From NCBI GenBank assembly GCA_029261405.1, contig JAJDBK010000052.1, forward strand, positions 1-39,544: a stretch of DNA of 39,544 nucleotides, read 5' to 3'. This stretch comes from Nitrospinaceae bacterium (GTDB lineage: Bacteria; Nitrospinota_A; UBA7883; JAJDBK01). Each line of letters opens with the position of its first letter. Within the stretch, counting starts at the first letter, position 1. The position numbers were made by a program, and so were the translations under genes. This document shows, piece by piece, positions 1,266 to 18,897 of the stretch. The notes under the pieces were generated by a model. The model saw only the letters and a program-made list of their open reading frames with translations. It made no database searches and was not told where the DNA came from.

Positions 1266-1884
1266 AAGCGTCAACCACCTTCACACCTCGCCGTTTAAGC
1301 TCTGTAACAAGCGGCATGACCTTGCACGGTTTCAGCCGAAAATGGCATACCTGCCGATGATTTTTTCCGGGAGGCGTAGCGGAATAGCTTATTATACTGA
1401 CTTTATGGGCTCGCAATACAGACAATACCGCATCGCTATCGTCTATTTCATCAACAAGCTCTACATCAAGCGTGGAGGTGGTTTCTATAACCCTGAGCAT
1501 CTCCGTGAAGACACCCAACATGTCGTCTTTGGTCACAATACCGCTCAGAGTCCCCTCATCCACCACAGGTAACGAACCAACTTTCATCCTGAGCATGATC
1601 TTTACGGCGTCTGATACCGACATGCCCGGATTGACCGTTACGACGTTGCTGGTCATGATCTCCTTGACCTTTAACTTGTCGAATTTCTCCTGTTCTCGCC
1701 CTTTCTTCGCACCCATAACCTTGCGGATATCCCTGTCGGAGATGATGCCCACAAGTTCCTTCGAGCGGTTGAGTACCGGGAGATGCGCTATCTTTTTGTT
1801 GACCATCGAATTGAAAGCGGTCGATATTTTGGTTTCAGGAGTTGTGGTAACCAATTTTCTGGTCATAACCTGACCAATATGCAT
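1249..1884 (-). CDS. CBS-pair plus ACT-like domain protein (AcuB-like)
   Basis: The protein has 211 residues. Two CBS motifs occupy about 1-60 (VMTRKLVTT ... ISDRDIRKVMG) and about 72-130 (IMTSNVVTV ... VTKDDMLGVF). A C-terminal stretch of about 137-210 resembles an ACT domain. This is the AcuB-like architecture, in which CBS pairs bind adenine nucleotides and sense energy state. Its target here is unknown. The start at 1884 has a near-perfect ribosome binding site, AAAGGAGAT. A longer in-frame start exists upstream but would add 20 residues unlike the family. It heads an operon with the radical SAM gene, behind a good promoter at 1923-1952. Confidence 0.85.
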   Translation of the reverse strand: MHIGQVMTRKLVTTTPETKISTAFNSMVNKKIAHLPVLNRSKELVGIISDRDIRKVMGAKKGREQEKFDKLKVKEIMTSNVVTVNPGMSVSDAVKIMLRMKVGSLPVVDEGTLSGIVTKDDMLGVFTEMLRVIETTSTLDVELVDEIDDSDAVLSVLRAHKVSIISYSATPPGKNHRQVCHFRLKPCKVMPLVTELKRRGVKVVDAYGEDT

Positions 1885-1922
1885 GAGCGTATCTCCTTTA
1901 TGAGTGAATGCGCCTACAGCCC

Positions 1923-1952
1923 ATTCTATGAGCCAACAACCCAATCAGTCAA
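1923..1952 (-). promoter_or_regulatory. Sigma-70-like promoter of the CBS-amrS operon
   Basis: On the minus strand, TTGACT (1947-1952, 5/6 to consensus) is followed after 18 bp by TAGAAT (1923-1928, 5/6). It lies about 40 bp upstream of the CBS gene start. The -35 abuts the repeat cluster that begins at 1962. Confidence 0.55.
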
Positions 1953-1961
1953 GTGGCTGGG

Positions 1962-2029
1962 CCAGTGGCTGGGCCACGGCCATTACGCTACCGCGATGGT
2001 TGAATATCTCATTCCAATCGCGCTGGTAG
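1962..2029 (+). repeat. Degenerate GC-rich intergenic repeat, unit 1
   Basis: The unit opens with CCAGTGGCTGGGCCACGGCC and continues through CGCTACCGCGA to CTGGTAG. The first 21 bases match 18877-18897 on the opposite strand at 19 of 21 positions (counted by eye). The tail at 1989-2029 resembles 2332-2373, sharing TACCGCGA, TGAATA and GGTAG in order. No gene is seen here; short open frames have no family resemblance. Confidence 0.6.
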
Positions 2030-2069
2030 CGGTGGCTACGCCACCTTCCATCGGGTCTGTGTGGCTGGG

Positions 2070-2126
2070 CCAGTGGCGCGGTCACAGCGATTAACGCTAC
2101 CGCCAGGAATCGATAGTCTGTTTACG
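2070..2126 (+). repeat. Degenerate GC-rich intergenic repeat, unit 2
   Basis: The head CCAGTGGCGCGGTCACAGCG aligns with unit 1, and the unit goes on into AACGCTACCGCC. The tail 2095-2126 matches 2196-2227 of unit 3 at 26 of 32 positions by eye. A short GC hairpin (GCCCC-TAT-GGGGC, 2140-2152) lies just downstream; it lacks a T run and is not a typical terminator. Confidence 0.6.
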
Positions 2127-2170
2127 TCTGTTCGGCGCGGCCCCTATGGGGCGGCCTTCGGGGTGGCTGG

Positions 2171-2227
2171 GGTGGCTCTGGGCCACGCCCACTTCCGCTA
2201 CCGCTGGGAGCCGATGGTCTGATTACG
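2171..2227 (+). repeat. Degenerate GC-rich intergenic repeat, unit 3
   Basis: It begins GGTGGCTCTGGGCCACGCC and runs through CGCTACCGCTGGG to TGGTCTGATTACG. It is the closest relative of unit 2 (26 of 32 bases in the tail). The following GGTAGCGGTCGC is a partial inverse of the CGCTACCGC core, so the unit can fold back on itself. Confidence 0.6.
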
Positions 2228-2315
2228 CTTGGCTTCGGTAGCGGTCGCTTCGCTCCCTGCCTACGGGGCTATTACTGGAGAATAAGAAGAGGTAGGGACC
2301 TCGGCCATTAACGGT

Positions 2316-2373
2316 TGGCGCCCCACAGCATTACCGCGACATCTGAATACCTTATTCATTGCGCGATTGGTAG
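2316..2373 (+). repeat. Degenerate GC-rich intergenic repeat, unit 4 (weak)
   Basis: GGCGCCCCACAGCATTACCGC resembles the head-to-core part of unit 1 with a 3-4 base deletion. The tail TACCGCGA...TGAATA...GGTAG follows the order seen in unit 1. This is the most diverged copy. The 1885-2568 stretch holds no recognisable gene; besides these units it contains the promoters at its two ends. Confidence 0.45.
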
Positions 2374-2517
2374 GGATTAGGCTCTTGGAGTGCACCACGC
2401 CACTGCAATGGTTACACAACAGATTGATGCAGTAGTTAATCTCGTAATAGCATAAGTTAGTAATGCGGTACCTCTGGCGACCTGATGGTTTTACATGTAG
2501 TCACGCCAGATGAGAAT

Positions 2518-2526
2518 TGGTATAAT
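2518..2526 (+). promoter_or_regulatory. Extended -10 promoter of the REC-GGDEF gene
   Basis: TGGTATAAT is a perfect TATAAT with the extended TGn element, 43 bp before the GTG start. The -35 region is weak (TAGTCA at 2498-2503), as is usual for extended -10 promoters. Confidence 0.5.
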
Positions 2527-2568
2527 CAAGGGTGATCAATTAATTAAACAGGAACTTGGAAAAAACAA

Positions 2569-3570
2569 GTGCGATCTAGCGCGGAGATGTCGATTCTGGT
2601 GGTGGACGACTCACGAATGAGTCGCGCCCTTATCAAAGCCCTGCTGGAAAAATCTGGATACAAGAATGTTAAAACAGCCGAATCGGCTTCCGAAGCATTC
2701 GAAATTCTTGGAATCAATGGTGAAACCGTAAGAGAAACGCCAGATATCGACCTTGTACTACTCGATATCGTAATGCGTGATATGGATGGCATCGAAGCTT
2801 GCCGACGAATAAAGTGTGAAAAACTTCTTCGCGATATCCCTGTCGTAATGGTAACCGGAAAATCGAACAAGGAGACTTTCGAGAAGGCTTTTGAATCCGG
2901 CGCCATGGACTTCATAAGTAAACCGGTTGATAAAATCGAACTGAAAGCAAGAATAGGCTCCGCTTTAAGTCTCAAGATGGAAACGGACCGCCGCAAAAAC
3001 CGTGAACTGAAACTGATTAAACTTGCCGAGCAACTAGAGCAAGCCAATAAGGAACTGCATCGCCTCTCCTCCATCGACGGCCTGACAGGCATCGCCAACC
3101 GGCGGACATTCGATAAGATGGTGGACAAGGAATGGAAACGGGCTTTACGGCAAGAGCGGCCCATCGCCCTTGCTATGATAGATATCGATTATTTCAAACC
3201 GTATAACGACCATTACGGTCATCAGGAGGGTGACGACTGTCTGAAAAAAGTCGCCCGGTGTATCGCAAACTCCCTGAAAAGACCGGGTGACTTCGTAGCC
3301 CGGTACGGTGGCGAGGAGTTCGTGATAATTTTTCCGGAAATAACGGGCGAAAACGCCACAACGATTGCGGATCTTGTCAGAAAAGCAGTGGCCGATCTAA
3401 AGCTACCTCATGAGCTTTCCAAAGCGGGCGATTATGTATCGATAAGCGTCGGAGTAGCCGTAACGGTTCCTTTACCAGGAAGTTCCCATACTGAACTGAT
3501 CAAAAAAGCTGACTCTGCCCTCTATCAGGCCAAGGAAACCGGGCGAAACAAGGTTGTCGGAAACTTCTGA
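2569..3570 (+). CDS. Response-regulator diguanylate cyclase (REC-GGDEF)
   Basis: The protein has 333 residues. A receiver domain spans about 8-128 with acidic pocket DD (13-14) and phospho-acceptor Asp66 in LVLLDIVMRDMDG. A helical linker covers about 135-168. A GGDEF domain runs from about 169 with SSIDGLTGIANRR, metal-binding DIDYFK and an intact GGEEF at 247-251. The inhibitory I-site RxxD is present as RPGD (238-241), five residues before GGEEF, so product inhibition is likely. It should make c-di-GMP when phosphorylated; its histidine kinase is not adjacent. The start is uncertain: a GTG at 2569 with TGGA 8 nt upstream, or an ATG at 2587 (MSILVVDD). It lies upstream of the LapG/LapD pair, a natural c-di-GMP consumer. 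Confidence 0.9.
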   Translation: MRSSAEMSILVVDDSRMSRALIKALLEKSGYKNVKTAESASEAFEILGINGETVRETPDIDLVLLDIVMRDMDGIEACRRIKCEKLLRDIPVVMVTGKSNKETFEKAFESGAMDFISKPVDKIELKARIGSALSLKMETDRRKNRELKLIKLAEQLEQANKELHRLSSIDGLTGIANRRTFDKMVDKEWKRALRQERPIALAMIDIDYFKPYNDHYGHQEGDDCLKKVARCIANSLKRPGDFVARYGGEEFVIIFPEITGENATTIADLVRKAVADLKLPHELSKAGDYVSISVGVAVTVPLPGSSHTELIKKADSALYQAKETGRNKVVGNF

Positions 3571-18760: not shown

Positions 18761-18865
18761 CTTACCTGCAAACACTTAAATTGGGCGGTTTCAAGATTCC
18801 AGCGCAACACCTTTGATATGGTATCTTGCAAGGAGCCTGTCAGACTTGGGATGATTCTGCTACAA

Positions 18866-18897
18866 AGTGGCGCCACTGGCTGTGGCCGAGCCACTGG
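18866..18897. repeat. Palindrome and inverted dispersed copy of the 1.9-kb repeat core
   Basis: AGTGGCGCCACT (18866-18877) is a perfect 12-bp palindrome. It runs into a 21-bp segment (18877-18897) whose reverse complement matches 1962-1982 at 19 of 21 positions. GCCACTGG occurs twice within 30 bp. It lies in the 225-bp gap before the MinD-like gene, which otherwise holds only a promoter. Confidence 0.6.

Follow-up and report, generated by a model that had tools for sequence, protein, structure and literature searches.

In the draft genome of a Nitrospinaceae bacterium, a dispersed family of non-coding hairpin elements of ∼120 bp lies mostly downstream of genes in one orientation, and the palindromic head of the element often begins exactly at a stop codon. 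The family was recognised from a cluster of repeats near the left end of the window, meaning the whole 39,544-nt stretch of contig JAJDBK010000052.1 (assembly GCA_029261405.1) that was analysed. Neighbouring matches in the genome were merged, with edges extended by rule, into 69 clusters. In 31 of these the outermost head lies no more than 1 nt from the end of an upstream open reading frame (ORF) on the same strand, a property of 1.4% of noncoding positions (p about 1e-38; ORFs of at least 60 codons, the background being every noncoding position of this DNA, with ORF ends used in place of curated annotation). The reading preferred here, to which we give an even chance of being correct, is that of a non-autonomous, REP/MITE-like mobile family, non-coding and composed of several hairpins, which occupies gene 3′ ends in the gene's own orientation.

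The units in the window lie in direct order on the forward strand. Self-comparison of the window confirmed direct repeats where the first-pass annotation had placed them, with a 47-nt ungapped repeat common to units 2 and 3 and a 33-nt head repeat common to units 1 and 2, and units 1–3 are matched by a covariance model of the family. The 33-nt repeat, held in common with 2061–2093, marks an extra partial head (GTGGCTGGGCCA, 1953–1964) 5′ of unit 1, and the same duplicated head precedes other genomic copies. Unit 1 (1965–2060) is of type A, with a head, core hairpin and GC hairpin but without the GATTAAGAA end, and matches model positions 1–98 of 122 at 88.5 bits. Unit 2 (2061–2161; model match 2073–2161, 37.3 bits) joins a partial head to an element with a third tail type (GGCCCC-TAT-GGGGCGGCC), a tail also present in copies on contig C33. 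Unit 3 (2160–2296; model match 2172–2296, 111.9 bits) is a full-length type B element with a doubled head. The agreement of 26 out of 32 tail bases previously counted between units 2 and 3 is correct, while the unit length of 55–70 bp was an underestimate, the actual unit being about 120 bp. Four units had been proposed, and the first three are family members; unit 4 (2297–2400) is merely a degenerate type A core with a weak model match (2332–2372, 12.2 bits, E=0.021). Folded as RNA, unit 1 is more stable than its own shuffles (−52.1 kcal/mol, z −3.5), whereas units 2–4 are unremarkable in this respect.

An inverted copy had also been described ∼17 kb away. Its 19 of 21 matches between the head of unit 1 and 18877–18897 check out on the sequence, but what lies there is a lone relic on the reverse strand: the weak model match spans 18792–18894 (12.4 bits, E=0.018), and only 18867–18897, read as a doubled head, is head-like. 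The cluster in the window sits between divergent genes and, unlike the majority of the family, has no recognisable gene end. Part of it (2193–2400) recurs at 93% identity on contig C63 (G000:C63:199-405), directly after a tRNA-Gln gene. The recurring segment of ∼200 bp as a whole spans 2193–2460 in the window and about 120–405 on C63, and includes unit 4.

A BLAST search of the own genome with window positions 1950–2400 gave 53 matches, the best of those outside the window at E=1.4e-84. The covariance model, built from 23 aligned copies of which two come from this window, gave at least 84 matches at E<1e-3 in the same 3.27-Mb genome (a draft of 81 contigs, 99.5% complete, with ORF-based gene calls); this number is a lower bound, with 150 of 965 candidates scored. 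Because of these matches, the similarity between the units is not a chance resemblance, and the further genomic copies on which the first-pass annotation had made its claim depend are present in number. On sequence evidence, units 1–3 are thus members of a dispersed family of non-coding stem-loop elements. Most clusters consist of one copy or of tandem copies in direct order, and one, on contig C78, is mixed.

The full unit consists of the palindromic head, a core of the form GCTAMCGC...GGTAGCG, a short GC hairpin (GGTGGC-TAC-GCCACC and variants) and the GATTAAGAA end. There are two middle types (A and B) beside the third tail, and tandem duplication of heads is frequent. The head occurs as GTGGC-NNN-GCCAC, GTGCG-NNN-CGCAC or GTGGG-NNN-CCCAC, the two sides of the head pairs having changed together in a compensatory manner. 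Over 62 distinct heads, 170 of 186 cells are paired, compared with 102 on average, and never more than 123, in 5,000 shuffles; the scored pairs (4–10, 5–9 and loop base 7 with base 17) were picked after viewing a subset of the same copies, and the shuffles ignore relatedness, such that part of the signal may go back to a small number of ancient switches that many copies have inherited. In the 23-copy alignment 88.9% of cells pair, and sliding the partners lowers this to 60.7% or less. Head positions 7–8 also covary with 16–17, which follow the hairpin immediately on its 3′ side (TGG with GCC, and GCG or TCG with GCG), a pattern that would resemble a small pseudoknot or guide pairing.

At the usual junction, TA/G or TAG/G with the slash marking the boundary, the head follows directly upon the native stop codon, and a C preceding the TA is common. 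By our own reading, one of the 31 abutting clusters (C31:233) adjoins the end of an IS481-type transposase and not a host gene. In 13 further clusters the ORF reads into the element and terminates inside it, and 12 of these 13 use the two frames that are also found in the exact copies. The run-in cases fit former stops that were turned into sense codons, with the element giving the new stop, although this is not proof. In RimM, for example, the reading frame continues as ..LME-WVAGPVARPQR*, and wherever the stop has been lost in this way the element adds a short C-terminal tail, such as ..VAGPVARPQR, to the host protein. Around 15 clusters, including the one in the window, have no gene end ahead of them, and on the tail side there is no fixed distance to convergent genes.

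The stops adjacent to the element are TAG in 17 of 24 cases, compared with 24 of 83 other ORFs (p=3e-4), a set that may include spurious ORFs. A target consisting simply of TAG or CTAG was considered and rejected: CTAG is strongly depleted throughout the window, with 9 occurrences against 154 expected from base composition, and intergenic TAG outnumbers TAG stops by 54 to 7. The TA cannot be counted as part of the element, as the run-in copies lack it. A short motif by itself leaves the preference for stop codons unexplained, and therefore two possibilities stand side by side: a coupling of insertion to gene ends, or the retention by selection of only those copies that lie there. Also rejected was a recoded TAG combined with a protein-coding element. 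The frame ending in GAT-TAA is open in many type B copies; column entropies calculated per frame, however, contain no third-position pattern common to types A and B, type A is in another frame, and the host proteins end natively at the stop.

The host proteins appear to be ordinary core proteins, among them SAHH, L28, DapB, ArgB, PrfA, pyruvate kinase, RimM and Dxr, with no evident common function, and their genes are dispersed and do not form cassettes. Judging from protein profiles and relatives, these proteins end at their native C-termini at the junction with the element. SAHH, DapB and pyruvate kinase match their NCBIfam profiles through the last position, and RimM and Dxr match theirs to 164/166 and 385/389. 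RimM of relatives ends within one to three residues of the junction, and nine relatives have SAHH ending in ..YRY*, in no case followed by the element.

SufB encoded in the window is most similar, at 74% identity, to that of a Nitrospinota genome, which weakly places the host in this phylum. None of 23 other genomes of the phylum has the head pattern, and the model gives only weak matches in them, all below 25 bits. They include two diverged copies in genome G011 and some head-like sequences in G010. One of the G011 copies starts exactly after a TAG; the other, together with one copy in G010 that ends ..VAGPQP*, is a run-in case. The bacteria with these diverged gene-end copies belong to other families of the order, and those of the remaining weak matches that were checked were away from gene ends or could not be placed. 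A search for the core pattern through about 85,000 species genomes, excluding the own one, and through viral contigs gave nothing, nor did blastn searches of plasmids and phages give a match. Rfam has nothing for the window at the gathering threshold and nothing for the cluster even at E≤10.

Such placement could also result from function. Were the element a 3′-UTR component that once spread more widely, selection would have kept the copies next to stops, and the hairpins would act on the end of the mRNA through stability, ribosome release or a block to read-through. The single orientation, the conserved hairpin, the position within the presumed transcript, the enrichment of TAG at the junction and the similar placement of diverged copies in other bacterial families of the order all speak for this. 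Copies nevertheless vary widely in sequence, the host genes share no evident function, relatives manage without the element at the same genes, and selection would not obviously require a spacing of 0–1 nt; on balance we consider a functional origin of the placement possible but unlikely.

Under the preferred mobile reading, an enzyme acting in trans would join the head end of the element to a short target at gene ends, probably CTA or CCA before the first G. Insertions at gene ends would survive because the stop codon is kept, and should the native stop later be lost, another lies inside the element. By its position, the element is predicted to form the first part of the 3′ untranslated region in the transcript. 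For this reading count the copy number, the exact abutment, the run-in cases with their shared frames, the native C-termini, the SAHH genes of nine relatives as empty sites, two junctions with tRNA-Gln genes, the variable distance on the tail side, the covariation of the head, the C before TA and the diverged copies at gene ends in other families of the order. Against it stand the failure to find a mover, the clusters with no gene end ahead of them and the choice of stop codons, for which a short DNA target would not suffice. No target site duplication was seen at the junctions and there is no same-species empty site for comparison; the mobility of the element is therefore itself an inference. 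The mover may have been lost, left unbinned or be of an unrecognised type.

Two clusters start 1–2 nt after the 3′ ends of tRNA-Gln genes, and these bear on a further alternative, in which the element would become attached to RNA ends, either cut or mature (at stop codons and at the CCA ends of tRNA), and then be copied back into DNA. Joining to RNA ends followed by copying back would fix the orientation, in agreement with the sense-only arrangement, and both the TA/G junctions within stop codons and the two tRNA junctions are as expected. The cleavage of stop codons by RelE-type toxins, which takes place in the ribosomal A site, likewise counts in its favour. The RNA intermediate is hypothetical, however, and the genome has no RVT_1 reverse transcriptase, which makes this coupling to RNA 3′ ends or translation termination rather improbable. 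Equally doubtful is the broader proposition of a mobile hairpin element that, in place of DNA sequence alone, senses where expressed genes end, at stop codons and tRNA CCA ends, and whose insertion follows the direction of transcription through a mechanism not yet described.

The first-pass annotation had suggested a REP/MITE-like element, binding sites or decayed transposon ends. The latter two gained no support, and the first is apt for the high copy number, dispersal and palindromic structure of the family. REP elements associated with RAYT transposases comprise GTAG- and CGTC-tagged families (PMC3733652, PMC2817692), and GTAG-REPs are reported to lie close to gene 3′ ends, where the TAG of the tag is often the stop codon (PMC3733652). 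The present family is similarly short, palindromic, dispersed, abundant and near gene 3′ ends. A REP, however, has an unpaired GT(A/G)G tag and a single palindrome of 20–40 nt, whereas here GTGG or GTGC is paired within the head stem of a ∼120-bp element with several hairpins; REPs form inverted pairs in BIMEs, while most copies here stand alone or follow one another in direct order. No RAYT-type transposase, for which the first-pass annotation had proposed to look, was found: the own genome contains no match to Y1_Tnp (PF01797) although controls match, an absence that is not final in a draft. Since three tested features of REPs fail (unpaired tag, RAYT and inverted pairs), the family is REP-like but is not REP.

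For comparison, 33 REPs of E. coli K-12 have an ORF 3′ end no more than 250 nt away, at distances of 2–152 nt and in no case within 1 nt (nhmmer with a small, self-written REP profile and ORFs of at least 100 codons, a procedure that differs from the count for the present family; ORF ends were again used). These REPs thus lack the exact, one-way abutment to stops seen here. That the elements might still be ordinary REPs, mobilised by a RAYT transposase missing from the draft, finds a parallel in their copy number, palindromes and nearness to gene 3′ ends and in the TAG stops reported to be supplied by GTAG-REPs (PMC3733652), but in a genome that is 99.5% complete and without Y1_Tnp, with the terminal bases paired in a stem and no exact abutment among the E. 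coli REPs, it is very unlikely.

Other known repeats are less close. MITEs, for example those of the Correia type or those derived from insertion sequences, are likewise small, non-coding, repeated and presumed non-autonomous, but here no parent insertion sequence was identified and no terminal inverted repeats were apparent by eye: no inverted pair was reported in window positions 1600–2700, and the ends, GTGG.. and ..GATTAAGAA, are not complementary. The first 232 nt of the window are the right end of an insertion sequence, recognised by a transposase motif and a terminal TGTGAAGTCTCAACAGGTTATTCCC and presumably of IS481 type, and contig C31 begins with a nearly identical stretch that diverges after CCTAG; its end differs from the element, and this insertion sequence was rejected as parent. 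Rickettsia palindromic elements can add peptides, as the short C-terminal tails do in run-in copies, but the present family lies at gene ends and not inside genes, and has no codon signal.

The attC sites of integrons are imperfect palindromes directly after genes, in fixed orientation, and the present element is alike in size, palindromic structure, placement and orientation. It is highly improbable, all the same, that the family is attC-like or related to group II introns, the intron version being already disfavoured. No R′ or R″ core boxes were noticed by eye in the consensus, matches to the integron integrase profile TIGR02249 in the draft genome are all below the cut-off, RVT_1 is absent, the cluster lacks an Rfam match and the hosts are dispersed core genes outside cassette arrays. 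On the other side stand the attC-like placement and what we take to be a resemblance of GTGCG-starting heads to group II intron 5′ ends. Genes for a tyrosine recombinase and a MazF/PemK-type toxin, located on contig C33 (L224, 5154–7394) between two facing clusters of the element, may also be counted for it. With no match above threshold in the genome, an absence that its draft state makes less telling, Y1/RAYT, reverse transcriptase and integron integrase were all rejected as movers.

Repeats near gene 3′ ends are already known in bacteria, but exact, one-way placement at stops is far stricter than that of the E. coli REPs measured here, and suggests a rule of targeting or selection stricter than that of ordinary bacterial repeats. 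Were targeting the cause, the family would embody a rule for insertion at gene ends; were it selection, the element would be a portable 3′-UTR element. The family is also relevant to how attC and other recombination sites get joined to gene ends, a question that to our knowledge is open for integrons.

Close to the inverted head relic, window positions 18830–18863 (AGGAGCCTGTCAGACTTGGGATGATTCTGCTAC) resemble stretches that adjoin other copies of the element (e.g. at L004), and a second dispersed repeat of this kind may travel with the hairpin family.
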